From: Acidobacteriota bacterium
GTDB lineage: Bacteria > Acidobacteriota > Thermoanaerobaculia > UBA5066 > Gp7-AA6
Length of the DNA stretch: 64,000 nucleotides
Assembly: GCA_027307335.1 (NCBI GenBank)
Contig: DAHUXD010000064.1
Location: forward strand, 1 to 64,000
Direction: 5' to 3'
Shown: positions 6,365 to 60,101 of the stretch, one piece after another
How positions within the stretch are numbered: position 1 is the first letter of the stretch
Layout: the number at the start of each line of letters is the position of its first letter
Made by a program: the position numbers and the translations under genes
Notes under the pieces: model-generated
The model's input: the letters and a program-made list of their open reading frames with translations, nothing else
Told to the model about the DNA's origin: nothing
The model's database searches: none

Positions 6365-7480
6365 TTACGCCAGCGCTTCCTTCAGCGGCGTATAGCTCCT
6401 GCCCTGGGCGTCCGCGACCGCCTCGTAGGTCAGCTTCCCGGCGTAGGTGTTGACCCCCTCCGCCAGGTGCGCGTCCTCCGCCACGGCCTTCTTCAGCCCC
6501 TTGTTGGCGAGCTGCAGCGCGTAGCGCAGCGTCGAGTTCGTCAGCGCGAAGGTGGACGTGCGCGCGACGGCCCCCGGCATGTTGGCGACGCAGTAGTGAA
6601 TGACGCCGTCGACCGTGTACACCGGGTCCGAGTGCGTCGTCGCGTGGGTCGTCTCGAAGCAGCCGCCCTGGTCGACCGCGACGTCGACCGCGACCGAGCC
6701 GGGCTTCATCTGGGCGATCAGGGCGCGGGAGACGAGCTTCGGCGCGGCCGCGCCCGGAATGAGCACGGCGCCGATGAGGAGGTCGGCGCGCCGGCAGCCC
6801 TCCTCGAGCGTGTGCGAGTTGGACGCGACGGTCTTGACGCGGCCGAGGAAGATGTCGTCGAGCTCGCGCATCCGGTCGGGCGACGTCTCGAGAATCGTGA
6901 CGTCCGCCCCCATGCCGGCCGCGATCTTGGCCGCGTTGGTGCCGACCACGCCGCCGCCGATGATGACGACGTCGGCGGGGGGCACGCCCGGCACTCCCGA
7001 GAGGAGCACGCCGCGGCCGCCGTTGGATTTCTGGAGGTAGTACGCGCCGACGTGGACGCTCATGCGGCCGGCGACCTCGGACATCGGCGTCAAGAGTGGG
7101 AGCGAGCCGTTCGCGGCCGTGATCGTCTCGTACGCGACGCCGGAGACCTGGCGCTCGAGGAGCATGTCGGTCAGGGCCTTCGCCGGAGCGAGGTGCAGGT
7201 ACGTGTAGAGGATCTGCCCCGGGCGCAGTCGCCGGTACTCGGGGCCGACCGGCTCCTTGACCTTGACGATCATCTCGGCCCGCTGGAAGACCTCGTCGGC
7301 CGTCGGGAGGATTTTCGCGCCCGCGGCGACGTACTGGTCGTCGGGGATCCCGGAGCCGGCGCCCGCGGCGTGCTCCACGACCACCTGGTGGCCCGCCGAG
7401 ACCAGGGCGGCGGCGCCGGCCGGCACCAGCCCGACCCGGTTCTCGTTGTCCTTGATCTCCCTGGGAAGCCCGACGATCAT
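6365..7480 (-). CDS. ald: Alanine dehydrogenase
   Basis: A 371-residue NAD-dependent L-alanine dehydrogenase that interconverts alanine with pyruvate and ammonia in the cytoplasm. It starts [18 protein letters not shown], the canonical family N-terminus with the substrate-binding Arg. Further family marks are VKVKEP (catalytic Lys region), LYTYLHLA (catalytic His region) and the Rossmann motif [17 protein letters not shown] (~170-187). The C-terminal part ([19 protein letters not shown]) matches the conserved end. The length is the family norm. No operon partner is obvious; the aldehyde dehydrogenase follows upstream across a hairpin-rich gap. Confidence 0.95.
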
Positions 7481-23598: not shown

Positions 23599-23643
23599 TG
23601 GAGCGGGCAACCGGGATCGAACCGGCGACATCCAGCTTGGGAA
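23599..23643 (-). tRNA. 3' fragment of tRNA-Gly(CCC), attachment site remnant
   Basis: On the minus strand these 45 bases run from the anticodon loop TTCCCAA through the 3' anticodon stem (GCTGG), the T-arm (GCCGG-TTCGATC-CCGGT) and the acceptor strand (TGCCCGC) with discriminator T and encoded CCA. The matching 5' half, which should begin GCGGGCA and include CCAGC before the loop, is absent: the bases beyond 23,643 share nothing with it. A cut exactly at the anticodon loop is the classic crossover place of tyrosine-recombinase elements. It is read as the distal att site; the reconstituted intact tRNA should lie past the far end of the element. Confidence 0.88.
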
Positions 23644-33352: not shown

Positions 33353-34581
33353 TCAGGCCATGCTTGTCACCAGGGATCCGTCAGTCCCGCGGTCGGGGAG
33401 GCTGTGTGCATCGGCGACCGAGGTACCGTTCTGTATCCAGGTTGGTGGAAGGAGGACCGTCGGAATGGCCACCCCCGCGCCGAGGAAGGGACCGTGATCA
33501 CCGGATTGAGCGCGCTTCACGGCATTTCGAACATGACGGGTAGCGAGAGCCGTACGAAGTCTAAAGTGGGTCGCCCAATCACCTGGATAAGCGAATGGAT
33601 TCTGACGCCTCTGGATAGTGGGAGCATCGACCAGCGCTGAGAACGGCGCATCCACGGCGAAGACGTTATGGTGAGGGACATCCGGGCGAGGCAGCCAGCC
33701 GTCTTCGCCATAGCCACCGGTGAACAGACAGCGATCGAATCCCCCGCCAACTGTCGGCGGATCGGGCGAGGCATATCCCTCGTGCTGCGTCCACATCGAC
33801 GAATTCACCCACCTCTCGGTGATGAAGCCTAGAAACTTCGGATCCTGAACAGCTTCATCCACTGTCGGAGCCTTCTTGGGGTCGTCGATGTACGCCAAGA
33901 CCATTGCAGCAAAGTTGGAGTGAGCATAGAAATCGGCGATCGCATGACAGGCCAGACCGTACGGTACGGCTTCAGAACTGCCTGAAGCAACGGTGTGAAG
34001 CGGGGTCTCCCCATCCCACCTTAGCCGGTCGTCGAGCAGGGCTATCGACTCGAGAATCATGGAGTTGTCAAAGTGTTCTCGAGGATCGTAGTTGGGATGG
34101 GTCCAGGGATCGTCCACCCGAAAATTCACCCGGTTGATATCGTCGATGACAGAGAAATCGAACATCCCTTTCAGAGCGCTGTTGTTGATGTCGCTGTGTA
34201 TCGATATGAAAAATTGCGGGCGCAGGTTCTCGAGTTCATCAGCCGATGCAGCCGTCCAAACTAGCTCTCCATCGAAGAGCGCCAAGGGCTGTAACTCGTG
34301 CCGGGGTGCGGGTTGGCAGGGTCGATGGTGATAGAGGATCCGCGTACTCGGTCGAGTAGCCACGCGTGATCTACGACAGCACCGCTTTGAAGACGAAGAC
34401 GGCCGACCGCCAAGAGGCCATGGCTTAGCTTGTTCTCGTGAAATCTCCTGACGGCCACACGCAGACACGCACCCCAAGTAGACGGGTAATCAGCGGAACC
34501 TGAACTGGAGCGGATGAAATCACGAATCTCCCGGCCTAAGCTCCAGTTGGGCTCAACCATTGGTTCCAAGCGGGAGTTCAT
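33353..34581 (-). pseudogene. HET-C-like protein, frameshifted
   Basis: The ATG at 34,581 has AAGGAG eight bases upstream and starts a frame with a natural-looking sequence (DHAWLLDRVRGSSITIDPAN) that ends at 34,261. A second frame, overlapping and shifted by one base, carries the rest: LFDGELVWTAASADELENLR, HFDNSM, and the HET-C/phospholipase-like motif CHAIADFYAHSNFAAMVLAY. The sense would be continuous if one C were restored in the run near 34,287 (AGC-CCT-TGG read as AGC-CCC-TTG). The joined product would be ~409 residues. HET-C relatives are predicted metal-dependent, phospholipase/nuclease-like lytic proteins. No slippery heptamer is apparent, so this is a mutation or a sequencing error, not programmed frameshifting. 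Confidence 0.65.
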
Positions 34582-50061: not shown

Positions 50062-50841
50062 ATGTCAGGCGAGGATCCAGACCCTTCAGCGCCTCACGAC
50101 GAGCCTGCGGGTCGCACGGTAAAGTTCTTGGGCATCGAGTTCCCTGCACCGTCCTGGGTCGGCTACTGCTTAGGCGGACTCGTCATCGTGGGCTTCGGGG
50201 CAGCTGTCTACCTTAAGGTGATCGTGCCCATCATAGAAGAGCAGGCGGGTCAGCTGCACCGCGTCTCCGAACTCAACGAATACCAGCGGCACCTAAGTGA
50301 GGTGTTGCTCCACAAGTCAACGGTGCTCGAAGGCCCTGAGCTTGGCGTTCTCACTGTTGGCTATTACGCTTCCGACGGCTGTCTCCTAATCACGGCGACT
50401 CCTCCCGGGAATCAAGGTTCATTGCATCACTTCATCCAAAAGGCCGCCTATGCGGGGCCACCACCAGGTCCTACCCTCGGAGGGCGATCAGCGGACAACA
50501 TCGGCACGTCGCCGGAGATTCGGCCTGGCGCGCGAAATTCGGCCCGAGAGTTCCGCGACGCAGCTCCACAGGCGACAAATGGGGCGCTTACTATCGCCAC
50601 CGTTCTCTTGGCCAACACAACCGCCGGTAGCTCCGGTCAGGGTTGTACCGGTCGTTGTACGAGCCCACACCCTGGCCCGTTCCGGTCGTGGAATGGCGAC
50701 AGAAATGGATGCTGGTTGGCGATCTGGCGCCAGTGGGCTGACGGCTGTACCCACTACCAGTGGTACAACACTTGCAACGGAGCCTGGGACTCGAATCCCG
50801 ACGGCTCACCTAAAGTCTGGTGGACCTGCTGTGTCCATTGA
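50062..50841 (+). CDS. Single-pass membrane protein with Cys/Trp-rich C-terminus
   Basis: A 259-residue protein; one membrane helix (GYCLGGLVIVGFGAAVYLKV, ~33-52) follows a short cytoplasmic tail. A coiled-coil-like stretch (EEQAGQLHRVSELNEYQRHL) comes next. The C-terminal ~70 residues are rich in Cys and Trp (CTGRC, GCWLAIWRQW, CTHYQWYNTCNG, VWWTCCVH), suggesting a disulphide-bonded extracytoplasmic domain. Unknown family. GAGG precedes the ATG by eight bases, and the stop overlaps the next gene. Confidence 0.65.
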   Translation: MSGEDPDPSAPHDEPAGRTVKFLGIEFPAPSWVGYCLGGLVIVGFGAAVYLKVIVPIIEEQAGQLHRVSELNEYQRHLSEVLLHKSTVLEGPELGVLTVGYYASDGCLLITATPPGNQGSLHHFIQKAAYAGPPPGPTLGGRSADNIGTSPEIRPGARNSAREFRDAAPQATNGALTIATVLLANTTAGSSGQGCTGRCTSPHPGPFRSWNGDRNGCWLAIWRQWADGCTHYQWYNTCNGAWDSNPDGSPKVWWTCCVH

Positions 50842-51892
50842 CGTCAGCCGCTTCCAGAAGCGGCCGAGGCAGCTCGATCATCGGCCGAACCAGCCCTCAG
50901 CCTCGCCGATCGAGCGCTTTGTAGTCCTCTTGGTGATGCTGCTGGCTCCTACTCTGGCTGTCTCTCAAACGGCGACGCCCTCAGCGCAGACACTCGCTGC
51001 ATCCTCGGCTTCGGCCGATCGCCCTGGCGATGACTGCATGAAGCGGTGGGAGGGCAGGCTCGGTGACCTTGTGTTGACAGACGACAAGTCGCAACTACGA
51101 CTTGACGCTTGCAACTCTAAGACACTCGTAACGGTCGTTGTCGGTGACCGGCCCCTCCGCGACTGGCTTGGGTCGAAGGATAGGAACCCGAACGACATCG
51201 TTCATCTTGAGTTCCGCGGCGCGGGAGACTCGATAACGCTTGACGCAGCAAAGGATGCCTCTGACGAAGGGTTCTCTGGCTGGACGCGGGCGATCGCGCT
51301 TGTCCTCGCCGAGCTCATGCTCCTCGCCCTGGTGAGGCTCTTTGTGGGACAGAGCACCGCCGCGCTGATCCTCGGAGAGGACAACCGATATAGCAAGTCA
51401 AAGTTTCAGATGGCCGTATGGTTCAGCGTCTTGATCGCAAGCTACGGTGCAACCGTGACTCTACGGCTGCTGTCGAAGCACCCGGTCGTGGTCGGCGGGG
51501 TCGATATCCCGCCCCATCTAGCCCTGCTGTCGGGGCTAAGCGCTTTCACGTTCGCTGCAGCCAAGGGAATAACCACAGCAAGCGATCAGAAGGCGAAGGT
51601 CGCGGCTGCCTCGGGAAAACCCCTGGGCCCGCCGAAGACGTACAACCCGGGACGCGCCTCATTCCCGTCGGATTTAGTCATGGATGACGATGGCCGGCCC
51701 GACCTCGGCGACTTCCAGATGATCGTTGTAACGCTGCTCGCAGTGATCGTCTATCTCGTGGCCGTTTACCGCTTCCTAGGAACGCTGCCGCTCGGCGCTC
51801 GCGTATCGCTTCCAGATGTGGACACGACGATTCTCGCAACCTTCGGACTGGGTCAGGGAGCCTACCTTGCCAAGAAGGCGGTAAGCCAATGA
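50831..51892 (+). CDS. Multi-pass membrane protein, hypothetical
   Basis: A 353-residue protein with an N-terminal signal/anchor (RFVVLLVMLLAPTLAVSQ), a ~100-residue extracytoplasmic domain containing two Cys, and four further membrane segments (AIALVLAELMLLALVRLF, MAVWFSVLIASYGATVTL, LALLSGLSAFTFAAAKGI, MIVVTLLAVIVYLVAVYR). GTG 50,831 is chosen because it overlaps the stop of the preceding gene by 11 bases; a longer frame reaching 50,450 is a shadow of that gene. No family recognised; perhaps partner of the 50,062 gene. Confidence 0.65.
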   Translation: MSIDVSRFQKRPRQLDHRPNQPSASPIERFVVLLVMLLAPTLAVSQTATPSAQTLAASSASADRPGDDCMKRWEGRLGDLVLTDDKSQLRLDACNSKTLVTVVVGDRPLRDWLGSKDRNPNDIVHLEFRGAGDSITLDAAKDASDEGFSGWTRAIALVLAELMLLALVRLFVGQSTAALILGEDNRYSKSKFQMAVWFSVLIASYGATVTLRLLSKHPVVVGGVDIPPHLALLSGLSAFTFAAAKGITTASDQKAKVAAASGKPLGPPKTYNPGRASFPSDLVMDDDGRPDLGDFQMIVVTLLAVIVYLVAVYRFLGTLPLGARVSLPDVDTTILATFGLGQGAYLAKKAVSQ

Positions 51893-51916
51893 AGGCGAAG
51901 CGCGGCGGAGGCACAC

Positions 51917-53338
51917 GTGGGTAAGGCTACGAAGGCGGCGGCAGGAGCAGCGAACCGGATCAGTCACGTCGTCGTTCTGATGCTCGAGAACCGGTCGTTC
52001 GATCACATGCTCGGGTCGCTTCAGAAGGAGCTGGGCCTCGACGGGGTTGACACCGACGCGCCGCCGCGGTCAAACCAAGCCGCAGGCGCCCCATATCAAC
52101 AGATTCCGGGAGCGCTTCGTGTCTTTCCCGACAACATGGACCCGAGGCACGAGTACCCGAACGTAAGGCAGCAAGTCAACGCTGGCGCGATGGATGGATT
52201 CGCGCAGGACTTTGCATCCAGCGTTCCTCACGCTCAGCCGCCCGACATCCAACAAGTGATGAGCTATTTCATGCCAGGCGACCTCCCTGCCCTTCACACC
52301 CTCGCACGGAACTTCACCGTGTGCGACCGCTGGTTCGCTTCCGTGCCCGGTCCCACCTGGGCGAATCGGTTCTTCGCCCACAGCGGCACCTCGCTCGGGC
52401 ACCTTGCGATGCCGGAGGGCCTCTTCAACCTTCACCTGCATTGGTATTCGCAGGACACCATTTATGACAGGCTCAACGACGCGAAGTGCGACTGGAAGAT
52501 CTACTACGGGGACGTTCCCCAGTCTCTTCTGCTCGTGCACCAGCTTGCGCCGGCGAACCTCGGTCGCTATCAGCGGCTCGCGCAGTTCTACGCCGACGCG
52601 GCCGGCGACGCGAATAGCTTTCCCACGTTTTCCTTCATAGAGCCCGAGTATTACTCGCCGGGACAGAGTGACGACCACCCGCCGCACGACGTTCTAAATG
52701 GCGATCACCTCATCGGGACCGTCTACAACGCCTTGCGGAGGAACGAGGCGCTTTTCCAAGAGACGCTTCTGGTGGTCGTCTGGGATGAGCACGGCGGCTT
52801 TTACGACCACGTGAAGCCAGCTCCCGCCGAGCCCCCCGACAACCGACCTGGCGAGTTCGACTTTGACTTCCGGACTTTGGGTGTCCGCGTCCCGGCGATC
52901 CTCGTCAGTCCCTGGACGGCCCGGAGGGTCTCGAGCGACGTATTCGATCACACAAGCGTTCTGCGCTTCGTTATTGAGGAAAACCACCTAGCGCCGCTTG
53001 GCAACCGTGTCGCGACGATGACGAGCGTCGGCGCAGCACTGCTCGCAGAGCCGCGACCTCTTTCTCAGTTACCTCCTTCGATTCCGGGCTTGAGCCCTCT
53101 TGAGACCACCCGTCCGACGAGCAGTCCCGACAGACTCAACGAGAACCAGCGAGGTCTCGCGGCCTACTCGCAGTACCTCGCGACCCAGACACCCGAGGAT
53201 CCCATCCGGGCGACCGAGCGGACAGCCGCCATGATGACGAGCGCTCGGGCGCAGATCGATACCTCCTACGACAACTTCGACCGATACCTCACTGCATTTC
53301 GGCCGACACAGGGAGTGAAGAATGGCAACTCCGGCTAA
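51917..53338 (+). CDS. Phospholipase C/AcpA-type phosphoesterase without signal peptide
   Basis: A 473-residue alkaline-phosphatase-superfamily phosphoesterase (bacterial phospholipase C/acid phosphatase group). The catalytic N-terminal motif is ENRSFDHMLG (residues 24-33). Other conserved sections: GPTWANRFFAHSGTS, FSFIEPEY, VWDEHGGFYDHV (metal ligands) and DHTSVLRFVIEE. GTG 51,917 with GGAGG a few bases upstream starts it. Secreted members normally have a Tat or Sec signal; this one has none, so it is retained in the cytosol or exported by a machine. The stop overlaps the next gene by 17 bases. Confidence 0.87.
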   Translation: MGKATKAAAGAANRISHVVVLMLENRSFDHMLGSLQKELGLDGVDTDAPPRSNQAAGAPYQQIPGALRVFPDNMDPRHEYPNVRQQVNAGAMDGFAQDFASSVPHAQPPDIQQVMSYFMPGDLPALHTLARNFTVCDRWFASVPGPTWANRFFAHSGTSLGHLAMPEGLFNLHLHWYSQDTIYDRLNDAKCDWKIYYGDVPQSLLLVHQLAPANLGRYQRLAQFYADAAGDANSFPTFSFIEPEYYSPGQSDDHPPHDVLNGDHLIGTVYNALRRNEALFQETLLVVVWDEHGGFYDHVKPAPAEPPDNRPGEFDFDFRTLGVRVPAILVSPWTARRVSSDVFDHTSVLRFVIEENHLAPLGNRVATMTSVGAALLAEPRPLSQLPPSIPGLSPLETTRPTSSPDRLNENQRGLAAYSQYLATQTPEDPIRATERTAAMMTSARAQIDTSYDNFDRYLTAFRPTQGVKNGNSG

Positions 53339-54017
53339 GCTCTCAGAGTTCCTCGACCAGTCAGTCGCGCAGGCGGGCGACGCGAGCCTGTTCCAGGGAG
53401 CCATCGTGTTCGTCGCCCTCAACCGGATGCTCGACCGGGTCATCCAGCAGGCCCTCGCCCTCGATGACTACCACCGCGGAAGCCCGAGCCCCTGGTCGCA
53501 CTGCTTCTTGCTCGCCGAGCCCTATCACGGACCGGCCACCGCGCTTATCGAGTGCAGTGTCCGCACGAAAGACAACCGGGTTATTTGGGACGAAGACCAC
53601 GTTGACCCTATTAAGGTTCTGAGCGGCGAGGACGTGAAGAGCGGCCGCTGTCAGGGGCAGATCGCTGACTACGACGACCCGCGCGTCACCCGATGGGGCG
53701 TGAAGTGGCTGGACAATCTCCTGCCTTCGCAGCGACAGGAGATCGCGGTCGATGCCCTCGATCCGAAGTGGGCGCCCTACCGCTACGACTTTCCCGGTCT
53801 CTTGCGCGATCTTATTCGCCTCATATCGGGCGGCGCGATCGACCTCCCCGCCGGGAAGAACCTGCTGTTCTGCAGCGCCTTCGGTCAATCCGTGTACACC
53901 GATGTCCTGGCCGACCACGGGCACTTTGCACCGGGAATCACGGACGCCGGTACATCACCTGATGACCTTTGGTACTCGGATCTTGGCTCCCGGATTGGAC
54001 CAATGCCCGCGTCCTAG
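53322..54017 (+). CDS. Permuted papain-like (YiiX/NlpC-type) protein
   Basis: A 231-residue protein. A His early in the chain (SPWSHCFLL, His60) precedes a beta-strand with Glu (ALIECSV), and a Cys late in the chain (LLFCSAFGQSVYTDVLA, Cys184) sits at a helix start. That order (His, then Cys) is the circular permutation typical of YiiX/YebB-like NlpC/P60 relatives, which are amidases or thiol esterases. The assignment is by motif arrangement only. The ATG at 53,322 has GGGAG upstream and overlaps the phospholipase gene, so the two are co-produced. Confidence 0.6.
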   Translation: MATPAKLSEFLDQSVAQAGDASLFQGAIVFVALNRMLDRVIQQALALDDYHRGSPSPWSHCFLLAEPYHGPATALIECSVRTKDNRVIWDEDHVDPIKVLSGEDVKSGRCQGQIADYDDPRVTRWGVKWLDNLLPSQRQEIAVDALDPKWAPYRYDFPGLLRDLIRLISGGAIDLPAGKNLLFCSAFGQSVYTDVLADHGHFAPGITDAGTSPDDLWYSDLGSRIGPMPAS

Positions 54018-54227
54018 GTGCCTATCGCAGGCCAGAGTCAATGCATCAGTTTGGTCAAATGCGCATGTCTCACGGCCCGTCATTGACCGTGGTGTCGCTC
54101 CCAGTCACCAACCACGCCACCATCGACCGACAGCCAGACCAAAGACAACTTCGAACGCTTTCTAGAACATCGCGGTGCCGCGCGCGCTACGTACGCGCTG
54201 ACGACACCGCGAGAGGTGTGATGAGCC

Positions 54228-55193
54228 ATGAGATCCGGCTACCAAGGCAGCGTTGTCGCAGCGGGAGTCGAGGAGCCGCCGATAGCCGGAAATCGCCGGC
54301 TCAGGCCGTCTACACGCCGCTGGCTCTCCCCGTGGTCAACCGCGTCGCGCTGGCAGCAGGGCTTCGTACTCCTGCTCTCGGCATTCGTCGCGGCACGCTG
54401 CGGAACTACTGCGACCGGTTATCCTGCCCAGTCAGGCTACACCGCCGCAGACCTTCACGCGCTCGATCAATACTTCGCGCCGGACGTCCTTGCCACTTAC
54501 CACACCAAGGATTCGAGCCCAGACGAGCAGCGTCAATACCGGGACGTTGTCATCAACTCGCGGATCAGGGCCATTGACCTACGCTACACGGCCTTCGAGC
54601 AAGCCCTCACACGGGACATGGCCGCCATCAACGTGGGGACTGATTGGGCCGTCATCGGTCTCAGTGCAGCAGGAGCTATCGTTGGAAGCGCCACCACGAA
54701 GAGCATCCTTGCAGCTATCTCGGGAGGCCTCACAGGCGCAAAGGGCTCGATTGACAAGAATGTCTTCTATAACAAGACGCTCCCTGTTCTCTTCACACAG
54801 ATGGATGCGCTGCGCCGGACCGCGCTCGTAACCATTCGAACCGGAATGCAAGCCTCAACGACCGAATACCCTCTCGAGCAGGCGCTTCTCGATGTCGCTG
54901 ACTACTACAACGCCGGCACGATCCCGCGGGCTCTCACCGGTATCACAGCGGCAGCTGGGGCGCAAAGCAGCGAGAAGACACAACAGCTGGAAGACATCTA
55001 CAAGAGCGACGCGGCGACTAGCCAACTGCGCGCGTTCTGGAAGCCTGATGGACACACCAAGGACCCGGACAATGACAAGACGCTGCGCGACTGGCTTAAG
55101 AGTCACGGGCTCGACATTTCGATTACGTTCTTCTTGCACGCCCAGCAGTATAGCGACCAGCGACGGCAGGCCGCGGCGGAGCTGATCAAGTGA
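54228..55193 (+). CDS. Putative lipoprotein, hypothetical
   Basis: A 321-residue protein. After an unusually long Arg-rich N-region the hydrophobic stretch FVLLLSAFVAARCGTT gives a lipobox-like AARC, so Cys at ~59 is a lipidation candidate. A true start nearer the helix is possible but none with a good ribosome site was found. The mature chain is helical with a Gly/Ala hydrophobic hairpin (VIGLSAAGAIVGSATTKSIL). No family recognised. It lies ~210 bases after the papain-like gene in the same direction. Confidence 0.6.
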   Translation: MRSGYQGSVVAAGVEEPPIAGNRRLRPSTRRWLSPWSTASRWQQGFVLLLSAFVAARCGTTATGYPAQSGYTAADLHALDQYFAPDVLATYHTKDSSPDEQRQYRDVVINSRIRAIDLRYTAFEQALTRDMAAINVGTDWAVIGLSAAGAIVGSATTKSILAAISGGLTGAKGSIDKNVFYNKTLPVLFTQMDALRRTALVTIRTGMQASTTEYPLEQALLDVADYYNAGTIPRALTGITAAAGAQSSEKTQQLEDIYKSDAATSQLRAFWKPDGHTKDPDNDKTLRDWLKSHGLDISITFFLHAQQYSDQRRQAAAELIK

Positions 55194-55216
55194 CAGACAC
55201 TAGCGCAAGGCTCGAT

Positions 55217-55233
55217 GGGAGACGACGCCAAGG
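55217..55233 (+). repeat. 17-base direct repeat, copy 1
   Basis: GGGAGACGACGCCAAGG occurs here, 11 bases before the 73-residue protein start, and again at 56,138-56,154. Both copies lie in gaps just upstream of cargo genes and both are preceded by CAAGGC. Confidence 0.6.
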
Positions 55234-55243
55234 AGTAGCGTGA

Positions 55244-55465
55244 ATGCCGCGAACTGAGACACTTCGAAACGTTCCCGACGCGGACCTGGACGAAGTTGTT
55301 GCCGACTTCAAGAGTGAAGGAGCCAGTGTCACGACCGACCGCCAGCCGAACGGCCAGTGGACCGTTACTGCTACGTTTCCGGATGGAGCCCAGGCAGGGC
55401 CGAGTACACGCGCAGCGCCCAAGCCAGCGCGTGGTGGTGGGCGTGCCAGGAAGCCGCAGCCATGA
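55244..55465 (+). CDS. Small basic-tailed protein, hypothetical
   Basis: A 73-residue protein: an alpha/beta start (TLRNVPDADLDEVVADFKSE, then GQWTVTATFPDG) followed by a Pro/Arg/Lys tail (PARGGGRARKPQP). AAGGAG lies 8 bases before ATG 55,244. Similar 60-70 residue proteins exist widely as hypotheticals; no function is assigned. Confidence 0.6.
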   Translation: MPRTETLRNVPDADLDEVVADFKSEGASVTTDRQPNGQWTVTATFPDGAQAGPSTRAAPKPARGGGRARKPQP

Positions 55466-55594
55466 GCGGAGCGGAGCGCGCCACGCTGCGTAGACGCGGT
55501 CGGCTAGCCGCGATAGGGGCCTCAGAGCAACGGAGACGTTCCACGCAATACCCCACAGATTCGGGCGCACCATGGTGAAGCGATGGAGGGATGC

Positions 55595-56059
55595 ATGGCA
55601 GGCGACGTAGATGAATTGATCGGCCGGGTGAAGGGGCTCAAGTCAGATGAACTCGAAACCTTCTCAACGAGCCTTCCGCAGTCTCTCGACCCCTCCAGCC
55701 TGGCGCTATTCGTCAATAAGGGAATGCTTCCCGCGTTTGACGAGTTGCCACCCGCGGAAAAGAGTAAGGCGCTGGCTGGCGCTGTCTCGTCTCAAACTCC
55801 GGAGGAGAGACAGCGGCTCCTCCGTGAGATCGCTGGAATGCCTCCGCCAACGCCTCGGGCCAGGGACCGCTTGTGGCTGATCGTCGTCATCGCATTCGCG
55901 CTCGTTCTCGTTGGGAGCTTCCTTACACTGTCGGCTGCTGTGTTTGCGATCGGCGGCAAGGCAAGCCCTGAGCTAATCCTCACGATGTTCACGAGCGTTG
56001 TAGGATTTCTCGCGGGCCTCTTCGTACCGAGCCCGGTCGGCCGAGACGAGAAGGACTAG
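55595..56059 (+). CDS. Two-helix membrane protein, hypothetical
   Basis: A 154-residue protein. A helical N-terminal region (VDELIGRVKGLKSDELETFS) is followed by two membrane segments (LWLIVVIAFALVLVGSFLTL and ILTMFTSVVGFLAGLFVPS). ATG 55,595 is chosen because GGAGG lies five bases before it; ATG 55,583 is in frame but has no site. No known family. Confidence 0.6.
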   Translation: MAGDVDELIGRVKGLKSDELETFSTSLPQSLDPSSLALFVNKGMLPAFDELPPAEKSKALAGAVSSQTPEERQRLLREIAGMPPPTPRARDRLWLIVVIAFALVLVGSFLTLSAAVFAIGGKASPELILTMFTSVVGFLAGLFVPSPVGRDEKD

Positions 56060-56137
56060 AACAGCCATGCTCGGCAAAGACCTTTTGCTACTCCGACCGA
56101 ACAGTCTCCGGCAGAGTTTGGCAAGGCCTTTCAGGCG

Positions 56138-56154
56138 GGGAGACGACGCCAAGG
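56138..56154 (+). repeat. 17-base direct repeat, copy 2
   Basis: Second copy of GGGAGACGACGCCAAGG, in the 217-base gap upstream of the 225-residue gene. The rest of the gap holds a 6-bp stem, GGAGGC-AGGCGGA-GCCTCC (about 56,171-56,189), and nothing else recognisable. Confidence 0.6.
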
Positions 56155-56276
56155 GTGTGCTTCCTGCTACCTGCTAGAAAGGAGGCAGGCGGAGCCTCCG
56201 CTCAGACCGCGACGGGCCTGGCGACCCTCCGCGCCGAGACGACCGCCGGAGTCCTTACCCACGAGGATGCCCGGCG

Positions 56277-56954
56277 GTGAACGGGCTCTCGAGCATGTGT
56301 GCTTTCGTCACGTCGCCGCTTGCCAGGGCTAGCCTTCCGCCCGAAAGCGGAGCTGTCCCCTTCTCTGAAGGTCCGTGGCAGGTCGGCACGTCGATTGTAG
56401 CAATCATCGGCGGCTTGATAGCTGCATTCAAGGCGGTTCAGGAAATGGGTCTCGCGCGGCGGCAGCGGGAACGCGAATTCGCCTGGAACCAAGCGAAGGA
56501 ATGCGCTGCTCTTTTGAGTCAACTCGACTCGAGCGCTGCCAGCTCTGCGCTGCTCATGCTGGATTGGTCCAATCGTGCCTACACCCTCGCTTCAGGCGAC
56601 GTCGTTCTGATCAACGCCGAGCAAGTTCACCGAGCGTTGCGAACTACAGCACTCAACCTTACAGCCACCGAGGGTTTCATTCGCGATCGTTTTGACGCTC
56701 TCTTCGGACTCTTCGAACGCGTCGAGCGAGCGATTCAAGTCGGCTTGGTGCGAGAGGAGGACCTACTGTCCTCTCTTGGGTACTACATTAAGAAGATGGC
56801 CGAGGCGCAAGACACATTTGAGAACTTCATGGCGACCTACGGTTATCGACAGGCTCTTCAATTCGCAGCTCGCCTTCCCGCTTGGCGATTCAACGAGACA
56901 GTAAGGAGACAAAAGTATGAAAAAGGAGCCGAGACAAGTCAAGCCGAAGGCTAG
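56277..56954 (+). CDS. Membrane-anchored helical protein, hypothetical
   Basis: A 225-residue protein with one membrane segment (WQVGTSIVAIIGGLIAAFKA, ~35-55) then a long helical cytoplasmic domain (LARRQREREFAWNQAKECAA, GYYIKKMAEAQDTFENFMAT). GTG 56,277 is the outer start; ATG 56,295 would remove six residues. No family; resembles DUF4760-like single-pass helical proteins only in outline. Its 3' end overlaps the 51-residue gene. Confidence 0.6.
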   Translation: MNGLSSMCAFVTSPLARASLPPESGAVPFSEGPWQVGTSIVAIIGGLIAAFKAVQEMGLARRQREREFAWNQAKECAALLSQLDSSAASSALLMLDWSNRAYTLASGDVVLINAEQVHRALRTTALNLTATEGFIRDRFDALFGLFERVERAIQVGLVREEDLLSSLGYYIKKMAEAQDTFENFMATYGYRQALQFAARLPAWRFNETVRRQKYEKGAETSQAEG

Positions 56955-57072
56955 TGCCAAGAAGTCACGCCCTCGACGCGTCCGACCGATCGTGGATAAG
57001 AGGCGGGGGATTATCACTCTGCCGTCCGGAAAGACGAAAGCGCTGTGGAAAGAGGAAGAGCCCCCGGAATAG
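56917..57072 (+). CDS. 51-residue very basic small protein overlapping the gene before
   Basis: This frame has a strong ribosome site (AAGGAG, eight bases upstream) and encodes MKKEPRQVKPKASAKKSRPR and later GIITLPSGKTKALWKEEEPP. It overlaps the last 38 bases of the preceding gene in another frame. The basic body with an acidic tail suggests a nucleic-acid or protein-binding peptide. It is too short for ordinary gene callers. Confidence 0.6.
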   Translation: MKKEPRQVKPKASAKKSRPRRVRPIVDKRRGIITLPSGKTKALWKEEEPPE

Positions 57073-57164
57073 GTGTTGACCGGCCTTGTCAACGCTGGCA
57101 GTGAGGGTCTTCCCGCGGTACCCATCAGTAGGCCGACCAAAGCGGTATGTAAGGAGAACATGGC

Positions 57165-57770
57165 GTGGAAGCCGTACTGAAAACCCTAAAGGATGCACCG
57201 GTTGCAAACGTTCTCTTGCTTCTCGGGTTTCTACTGCTGCTCGCGGCCGCCAGTGGCCGCGCCATCGTCATCACGGCACGGCTCGATCCGTCTGGAAGAC
57301 GCCTGAGCGGCTGGGCAGGCGCAGTCGCTATGCTCTTCGGCGCCTACATCGGCTATCGAATCAGTAACACAACCATCAAAGGCTCGTCTCAGCCCCCACA
57401 CGAAACCGTGGTCCGGCCCACTTCCAGCGATACGCGGCCGACGACGTTGGCGGGCAGCCCCACGCCCACACCCGTCTCGGCTCCCACGACCGTTGACTCT
57501 CCCGAGACATACGTTGACTGGAATTGCGAAGAGCCTAAGACCGCAGGACTCGAGTACCAACTGCCGGTCGGTGCCCACTTTCTGACGGCGAGCGTTCAGA
57601 TCCGAGAAGTCGACAAGGCCAAGGCCTACTCACTTTCGCCGGTCACTTATGATGAAGCATCACGCACGGCACGTGCCTCTGCCACGTTCGTCGGCTTGGA
57701 CAAATTCCTATTCAACTGTGCAGGCGGCGGTCACGCGCGAATCTTCTTGCGAGTCTCCTACGTTCCCTGA
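57165..57770 (+). CDS. Two-helix membrane protein with extracytoplasmic domain, hypothetical
   Basis: A 201-residue protein; two membrane segments (VANVLLLLGFLLLLAAASGR and LSGWAGAVAMLFGAYIGYRI), a Thr/Pro linker, and a ~90-residue beta domain with two Cys (DWNCEEPKTAGLEYQLPVG; LFNCAGGGHARIFLRVSYVP). GTG 57,165 follows AAGGAG by nine bases. No known family. Last of the closely packed plus-strand run. Confidence 0.6.
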   Translation: MEAVLKTLKDAPVANVLLLLGFLLLLAAASGRAIVITARLDPSGRRLSGWAGAVAMLFGAYIGYRISNTTIKGSSQPPHETVVRPTSSDTRPTTLAGSPTPTPVSAPTTVDSPETYVDWNCEEPKTAGLEYQLPVGAHFLTASVQIREVDKAKAYSLSPVTYDEASRTARASATFVGLDKFLFNCAGGGHARIFLRVSYVP

Positions 57771-58005: not shown

Positions 58006-58569
58006 ATGCTTCTCAAGCGAACAACAGAGCATGTTCTGGTCACGGCGCTGCTAGTCATCAGCTGGGTGTTGCTCGACAAGTTTGGACACCGGCCGCCGGG
58101 TCGCTCCCAGGCCTTGCTTGAGGCTGGATACTACCTAGTAGTCGTCGAGTATTTCCTAGAAAGGCTCAGGGGCGTTCTGCGAGTTCTCCAGTCCAAGGAA
58201 CTTCGCCCCGTCGTTAAGGCACTCGTGCTACTCGTACTGATAGGTCTCGGGATGCTTCTCTTCGCGTTTGGCTTTCTCTTTGCGCTGTTTGCCTTTGCCG
58301 TGCTCCTTCTGTGGCGCTCGATCAAGTCACCGTCGAAGTGGTTCAACTGGCTGGCGGCACTCGTTCTTGCGGCCCCGGTTATTGTGGGCCGAAGCACCGG
58401 CCGCGTACGGCTCGAGCTTCCATTCCTCGACGTGTACACTCGAGAATCTAAGGCGATATGGATGCTTGTGCCACCGCTCACGACGGCTGGGGTGGTTTTG
58501 GCATGCGCGTCACTTCTCGCTGTAATGGCGCAGCGCGCGGGTACACATGCGGCGGCGGAAAACTCCTAG
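58006..58569 (+). CDS. Polytopic membrane protein, hypothetical
   Basis: A 187-residue protein with four to five hydrophobic segments (VLVTALLVISWVLLDKFG, ALVLLVLIGLGMLLFAFGFL, FNWLAALVLAAPVIVGRS, LVPPLTTAGVVLACASLLAV). No family recognised and no strong ribosome site. It ends 16 bases before a stem-loop terminator. Confidence 0.6.
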   Translation: MLLKRTTEHVLVTALLVISWVLLDKFGHRPPGRSQALLEAGYYLVVVEYFLERLRGVLRVLQSKELRPVVKALVLLVLIGLGMLLFAFGFLFALFAFAVLLLWRSIKSPSKWFNWLAALVLAAPVIVGRSTGRVRLELPFLDVYTRESKAIWMLVPPLTTAGVVLACASLLAVMAQRAGTHAAAENS

Positions 58570-59031: not shown

Positions 59032-59547
59032 TTATACCCGATCAACTCCTCGCCGCGTATCGGCGACTGCGAGACCAATCGCCACCGCATCGAACATGTT
59101 CCCGTGGTATCTGGCCCTCCACTTGGTTGTCTGGCGGAGGTAGGCCTTAAGCTCGAGGTATTGCCGCGCCGCGGCGCGCGCGACTTGCTCTTTGCTGGCG
59201 CGCCCGTTGCCGGTGACGAGCTTCTTCACCGTGCTTGCGGCCTTCGTGATTACTTCCACGCCTTCGCGCCGCCCGATACGCCGGGTCTCGCTGACGACGG
59301 CGTGAAGACGAGACCTGGCTCGACTGCCGCCGATTGAGTTCTCCTCTATTGTTAGGACCTTCGGCCGGAAGTCCTGTAGGAGCTCCTGAAGAAGCACCCG
59401 TGTATTCCGCCGCACGGCCGCAAGCTGCCGGCGATAAAGCATTGCCAGTACGCCGTGGTAGATCAACCGAGATCCATGGAACACGGCGATTCCGACATGC
59501 CGCGTGCCGGGGTCGATGGCTAGGATTCGTGGGCGTTGTCTGCTCAT
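59032..59547 (-). CDS. RuvC-like Holliday-junction nuclease, first of pair
   Basis: A 171-residue RNase H-fold protein with the RuvC acid pattern: Asp12 in ILAIDPGTRHVGIAVF, Glu68/69 in VLTIEEN, Asp153 in NMFDAVAIGLA, and a Lys-rich helix (KKLVTGNGRASKEQVARAAA) contacting junction DNA in RuvC. Probably cuts four-way or branched DNA during element replication or excision. The initiating ATG (59,547) sits right behind the palindrome TCTATATGTAGAGA with no Shine-Dalgarno seen. It is 14 bases after the second RuvC-like gene. Confidence 0.8.
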   Translation of the reverse strand: MSRQRPRILAIDPGTRHVGIAVFHGSRLIYHGVLAMLYRRQLAAVRRNTRVLLQELLQDFRPKVLTIEENSIGGSRARSRLHAVVSETRRIGRREGVEVITKAASTVKKLVTGNGRASKEQVARAAARQYLELKAYLRQTTKWRARYHGNMFDAVAIGLAVADTRRGVDRV

Positions 59548-59560
59548 CTATATGTAGAGA
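59547..59560. promoter_or_regulatory. TCTATATGTAGAGA near-palindrome between the RuvC-like genes
   Basis: It abuts the start codon of the first RuvC-like gene. It differs by one base from TCTATATATAGAGA at the element end (23,787-23,800). Possible shared regulator or recombinase site. Confidence 0.35.
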
Positions 59561-59561
59561 G

Positions 59562-60101
59562 TCATGCCGCCTCGACGAGGACCGACTCGGTGCGCTTCGG
59601 CAGTCTTTCGAAGTACGTGACTGCGAGGGATGTCGCATCGAAGAGATTCATGCGCTCGTCCTCGCTCTCGTAGCACTTTCGCTCATCCGGAAGGCGCGGA
59701 GAGAGCTCGGGATATCGCCTGGCGAGTTCCGCGGCGATCGAGTGCTTCGTCGGCCGGCGGAGGGCGGGAAACACTCCTCTTACATCCCGGCGGGAGAATG
59801 CCCGGTGGTGAATACCGCACGAGAGCGCCAGCGCTTCGATGCTCCGGATGAGGGCACGGACCCGCGGCTTTCGGTGCGAACCGGCGCCGTCGTAGTCTTC
59901 AAGAACGATGACCTCGGGATCGTACCGGGCGACAAGGTCTCGGATCCTGGCCATGCACTTCGGATTCTTCTTATCCTGCCTTACCTGGCTTAACCCCCAC
60001 TCGATGAGAAGGTCGGGTCCCTCGAACACGGTGTAGGCAAAGCCCCTCGTCGTCGGGTCGATCGCGAGAACCCTCGGGTATGTTGAGTGGCCTCCGATCA
60101 T
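59562..60101 (-). CDS. RuvC/RNase H-fold nuclease-like protein, second of pair
   Basis: A 179-residue paralogue-like protein: Asp15 in VLAIDPTTRGFAYTVFE, Glu68/Asp69 in VIVLEDYDGAG, Asp155 in MNLFDATSLAVTYF. Overall fold is as in the other RuvC-like protein, but the helix motifs differ, so the two have diverged and may act as a heteromer or on different DNA branches. The ATG overlaps the XRE regulator stop (ATGA). Confidence 0.72.
   Translation of the reverse strand: MIGGHSTYPRVLAIDPTTRGFAYTVFEGPDLLIEWGLSQVRQDKKNPKCMARIRDLVARYDPEVIVLEDYDGAGSHRKPRVRALIRSIEALALSCGIHHRAFSRRDVRGVFPALRRPTKHSIAAELARRYPELSPRLPDERKCYESEDERMNLFDATSLAVTYFERLPKRTESVLVEAA

Follow-up and report, generated by a model that had tools for sequence, protein, structure and literature searches.

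The plus-strand gene run at positions 50,062–57,770 of the 64,000-nucleotide stretch of Acidobacteriota DNA analysed here (the window) is cargo of an integrative element inserted at a tRNA-Gly gene, and one of its genes encodes a phospholipase C (PLC) that has no export signal. We propose, with a probability of roughly 40%, that the run encodes an element-borne effector that would act on its own cell by hydrolysing the inner membrane, with the product of the gene preceding PLC, m480, as a membrane partner. This proposal draws on the lack of room for a signal in the PLC frame, the catalytic motifs shared with plant NPC4, the mostly signal-less homologues, the immune genes next to some of these, the exact ends of the element and the OLD/GajA-like and TIR-like genes that it also carries.

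Genes of the run

The run opens with m259 (50,062–50,841), which has one transmembrane (TM) helix and a Cys/Trp-rich C-terminal part and belongs to no family, and m480 (50,831–51,892), which has a signal or TM helix, a small extracytoplasmic beta domain and about five TM helices. These are followed by PLC (51,917–53,338), a signal-less phospholipase C of the phosphoesterase type, pap231 (53,322–54,017), a signal-less 231-aa protein that is putatively a permuted papain-like (YiiX/C92-like) enzyme, and lip321 (54,228–55,193), a 321-aa protein of a lipoprotein family. Further downstream are a 73-aa open reading frame (ORF; 55,244–55,465) with a weak coding signal, m158 (55,583–56,059), with two TM helices toward its C-terminal end and no family, m225 (56,277–56,954), with one TM helix and a helical domain, and m201 (57,165–57,770), which is membrane-anchored and of no known family. 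The multi-TM protein m187 (58,006–58,569) is encoded in the same direction just beyond the run.

A preliminary description of this DNA had reported overlapping or closely spaced plus-strand genes, and it was right about their coordinates and order. With GTG at 50,831 as the best start, m480 overlaps m259 by 11 nt; m480 and PLC are separated by 24 nt, the last 17 nt of PLC are shared with pap231, and 210 nt lie between pap231 and lip321. Judged from the sequence, the m259–m480–PLC–pap231 core looks co-translated.

First-order Markov DNA of the same composition served as a random control. It contains about one ORF of at least 200 aa per 8.6 kb, and its longest ORF measures 220 aa on average. The plus strand of the run holds seven genes of at least 200 aa, mostly with the codon-position GC typical of real genes, and homologues of PLC, pap231, m480, lip321 and m225 exist in other genomes. 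Because of the ORF excess over Markov DNA, the codon-position GC and the homologues, we consider the genes of the run to be real.

The integrative element

The window covers positions 1 to 64,000 of contig C57, which is 100.9 kb long and belongs to a 96.5% complete draft genome of 4.37 Mb. The GC content drops from about 0.72 to 0.61 at 22–24 kb and goes back up at about 94 kb of the contig. The left attachment repeat, at window positions 23,599–23,643 (no strand assigned), reproduces the 3′ part of tRNA-Gly(ccc) exactly over 45 bp, and the second copy (contig 93,679–93,723) lies within the intact tRNA-Gly(ccc) gene (contig 93,679–93,753). This gene is adjoined by that of a tyrosine integrase on the minus strand (contig 92,099–93,298; Phage_integrase, 1.4e-29). 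Both hallmarks of a tRNA-integrated mobile element, a direct repeat at a tRNA gene and an integrase, are thus present, and the GC step, the repeat and the integrase place the run in an integrative element of about 70 kb, which reaches 29.7 kb past the end of the window.

Other genes of the element encode FtsK/HerA-like and Replic_Relax proteins, a coupling protein resembling TrwB, an ATPase of the OLD/GajA-like kind and a protein with weak TIR likeness. At window positions 59,032–60,101, two RuvC-like genes lie side by side, one of which matches Pfam RuvC.

A phospholipase C without an export signal

PLC matches Pfam Phosphoesterase (PF04185) with an E-value of 3.8e-76 over residues 15–354, the catalytic domain. 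Its closest solved relative is plant NPC4 (PDB 8hav), to which its catalytic motifs ENRSFD, PGPT, DDHPPHD and WDEHGGFYDH align intact. By sequence, PLC is a member of the PF04185/NPC-type phospholipase C family, for which hydrolysis is predicted. Against TIGR03396, the model of secreted PC-PLC, it scores 157.6 bits, below the equivalog cut-off of 580.25. NPC4 resembles PLC in keeping these motifs and in having no export signal in its sequence; unlike PLC, it is a plant signalling and lipid-remodelling enzyme, and the likeness is a sequence match (E = 9e-48), so that a shared function is putative. According to the literature, NPC4 is located at the plasma membrane, and plant NPCs remodel lipids under phosphate starvation.

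The open frame of PLC is 481 codons from stop to stop and ENRSFD begins at residue 24, so that an export signal cannot fit, as the preliminary description had held. The stop-to-stop frame of pap231 (232 codons) likewise excludes an export signal. For both proteins, the lack of a signal thus follows from the DNA itself, whichever start codon is chosen.

We fetched 42 homologous PLC loci. In a FastTree phylogeny of 42 sequences, the only four with N-termini that look export-like by eye (L031, L038, L039 and L041) cluster apart, and all others either lack a signal or begin with other N-terminal domains. The concern that PLC homologues might all be secreted nutrient-scavenging enzymes was thus not borne out in this set. 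For the window PLC itself, the role of a secreted scavenger is ruled out by the frame length and the mostly signal-less homologues.

Neighbours of PLC relatives in other genomes

Several PLC relatives adjoin genes of known immune systems. In a Microbacteriaceae MAG (L007, 6,031–8,516), the PLC gene ends at 7,374 and that of a CD-NTase starts at 7,383, 8 nt apart; this cyclase is a CBASS-type CD-NTase by its PADLOC match (7.2e-90). At L008, the order is TPR-S/patatin, PLC and TIR/FGE, followed by a patatin on the opposite strand, and at L026 PLC is followed by an nSTAND3 ATPase. L021 holds PLC, a patatin, a relative of m480 (35%) and OmpA, with an integrase, recognised by eye, nearby.

By raw count, a direct immune neighbour is present at only about 4 of the 42 loci, and this proportion counts against an effector. 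So does the clade of the window PLC, which comprises L003 and two Silvimonas copies (support 0.989), since no immune neighbours are visible at these loci. Most neighbours of PLC genes elsewhere are ordinary genes. This favours the alternative that accessory genes with little or no relation to one another, for instance for lipid turnover or envelope maintenance, have collected in the run, which would then have no single function. PLC can remodel lipids in such a setting, as plant NPCs do, and the PLC/pap231 pair is not conserved (see below). Against an accessory store stand the start/stop overlaps across four genes and the recurrence of partner classes (m480, patatin, lipoprotein, m225 and HET-C), and we regard it as somewhat unlikely.

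Signal-less PLC relatives also occur in a conserved block on at least six uncultivated virus contigs (L122–L128), several of which carry portal-, prohead protease- and terminase-like genes by eye. PLC might accordingly be a lysis or host-takeover enzyme that helps a phage-like or mobile element to open the host membrane. However, the viral copies share only 30–36% identity with the PLC of L021, which served as query, 50,697 phage records contained no PLC relative, and holin, endolysin or capsid genes were not noticed in the island, which makes a lysis enzyme quite improbable.

Other arrangements were seen as well. On Azospirillum/Sinorhizobium plasmids (L078, 7,531–10,081; L079, 6,667–9,973), a gene for a PUD1-like protein, PLC and an overlapping small Cys-rich gene form a set; the PUD1-like call comes from the related L042 copy, which matches Pfam PUD1_2. 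At L014 (1,328–4,368), PLC adjoins a papain C1 peptidase gene, with a chagasin-like gene on the opposite strand.

The m480 family

Close relatives of m480 were found at L021, L058 and L059. On a Gloeothece plasmid (L058, 10,504–12,894), a bacterial gasdermin gene (bGSDM, 6.6e-64), beside which no protease was seen, is directly followed by the m480 relative. None of three gasdermins from the phylum of our genome adjoins m480, their neighbours being CHAT-type or ordinary; given this reverse test, the gasdermin–m480 link rests on one case. Among 13 newly fetched loci of the wider family, one (L100) has the m480 relative in a single run with a Tle1-like lipase (1.9e-84). The link between PLC and m480 at L021 is partly ascertained, as this locus was retrieved through its PLC.

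An AlphaFold2 model of m480, made from an alignment with one row omitted, has low confidence, reaching moderate values in the TM helices only, and matched no PDB fold at E < 0.001. Sequence searches of the PDB gave no match for m480 or pap231, and close homologues of either were absent from virus contigs. A secreted family with the pattern GESVNC...LFFD..H...WEIHP recurs beside pap231 and m480-like genes (L049, 7,256–8,095; L099, 4,805–5,644; L100, 7,363–8,298).

pap231, lip321 and the HET-C-like protein

The reported papain-like nature of pap231 stands in part. The residues SxWxH...CS are conserved in a five-member alignment, with H60 and C184 invariant, and their order, His first and Cys later, is that of permuted papain-like C92/YiiX enzymes. 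In contrast, no family model, Pfam C92 included, matched pap231 above the cut-off, and a distant relative scores 0.067 for C92. The AlphaFold2 model has a pLDDT of 32, and a profile search reached two stand-alone distant relatives.

Close homologues of pap231 (46%) occur only in genome G007, twice, and none was found in phages or plasmids. In G007, pap231 has a transglutaminase/HET-C-like protein after it and, in one copy, a relative of m225 before it; m225 homologues also occur on Pseudomonas megaplasmids. The element itself encodes a HET-C-like protein on the minus strand (33,353–34,477), which had no credible match among PDB sequences and whose G007 homologue, next to pap231, is fused to a transglutaminase-like domain. 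The neighbourhood survey that had been suggested for PLC and the 231-aa protein argues against a conserved pair, which we reject: none of the 42 PLC loci contains a pap231 homologue, and no PLC of the window type was found in G007. Since pap231 of G007 has relatives of the HET-C-like protein and m225 beside it without PLC, the partners are shared between genomes but shuffled.

The lipoprotein call for lip321 is likewise mixed: its lipobox, FVAARC, is poor, whereas that of a homologue, VALAGC, is canonical. On two conjugative plasmids (L072, 10,007–12,311; L073, 9,977–12,212), lip321 homologues lie directly upstream of genes for signal-less DUF2272 wall hydrolases, one of which also has a SleB-type hydrolase domain. 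We take DUF2272 to be a papain fold because one copy also matches CHAP. By this sequence comparison, a putative papain-fold enzyme adjoining a lipoprotein is a theme that repeats on the plasmids with lip321 homologues, and pap231 and lip321 may form a second, separate amidase/lipoprotein module.

These plasmid loci also bear on the possibility that the run is an antagonism module, in which PLC and pap231 would act as effectors after delivery into other cells, with immunity conferred by lip321 or the membrane proteins, as in T6SS Tle/Tli pairs. In line with this, a lipoprotein-like gene follows PLC at L009, and immunity proteins to T6SS lipases are frequently lipoproteins (PMC13133936). Nevertheless, the genome, 96.5% complete, contains neither the T6SS protein VipB nor a phage or contractile sheath family (the controls worked, VipB being detected in E. 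coli), no PAAR/VgrG-like part was recognised in the run, and the lip321 lipobox is poor. We therefore consider an antagonism module unlikely.

Comparison with known systems

PADLOC gave no match for m259, m480, PLC, pap231, lip321, m158, m225, m201 or m187, and family-profile and PADLOC scans recognised no sensor (CD-NTase, STAND or TIR) in the cassette, which also counts against an effector. Like the patatin CapV of CBASS, PLC could be a cytoplasmic phospholipase that attacks its own inner membrane, and its L007 relative directly precedes a CD-NTase; in contrast to CBASS, the nine scanned cassette proteins include no CD-NTase, and PLC is a PF04185 phospholipase C and not a patatin. A review of CBASS names only patatin-type CapV and TM Caps as membrane-damaging effectors. 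The likeness to bGSDM systems lies in the Gloeothece plasmid, but our genome has no bGSDM gene and the sampled gasdermins of its phylum have no m480 alongside. With T6SS Tle/Tli pairs the run shares a signal-less lipase near a lipoprotein-family gene, and the m480 family has a member close to a Tle1-like lipase; however, sheath genes are absent and PLC lies outside the Tle families. As their defining parts were tested for and are absent, the run is not a CBASS, T6SS or gasdermin system. In the part of the literature covered, a search for a connection between Tle1, gasdermin and PLC found no earlier description of phospholipase C as an effector of these systems.

Discussion

The observations in the preliminary description are confirmed, and its interpretation as a contact-killing, self-lysis or phage-triggered membrane-damage system with its own immunity is partly supported, the phage trigger and the immunity being putative. 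Membrane damage fits the recurrent neighbours (CBASS cyclase, TPR-S/patatin-TIR, nSTAND3, patatin, gasdermin and Tle1-like lipase), whereas contact killing of the T6SS type is improbable given the missing VipB and sheath. For the same reason, we favour an attack by a cytoplasmic PLC on the membrane of its own cell over delivery.

It is plausible that PLC works like a membrane-degrading immune effector. We infer the cytoplasmic target of PLC, its trigger, the role of m480 and any protection against phages as follows. PLC most likely remains in the cytoplasm and, when activated, would remove the headgroups from the inner-membrane phospholipids of its own cell. The resulting membrane damage would lead to growth arrest or death and protect kin or the element, as an effector of the abortive-infection type does. 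The probable part of m480 is to anchor, restrain or trigger PLC, for which it would use its extracytoplasmic domain.

A wider proposal, which we put forward as rather doubtful, is that signal-less NPC-type PLCs are an unrecognised class of prokaryotic immune effectors, used in CBASS-, TPR-S/TIR- and STAND-type systems and in sensor-less element cassettes, and that m480 represents a new membrane family serving PLC, patatin, Tle1-like lipase and gasdermin. If true, phospholipase C would be an added enzyme class in bacterial cell suicide, linked to the plant NPCs; m480 would be a marker family for finding more membrane-killing systems; and this mobile element would carry a membrane-suicide device outside a recognised sensor operon.
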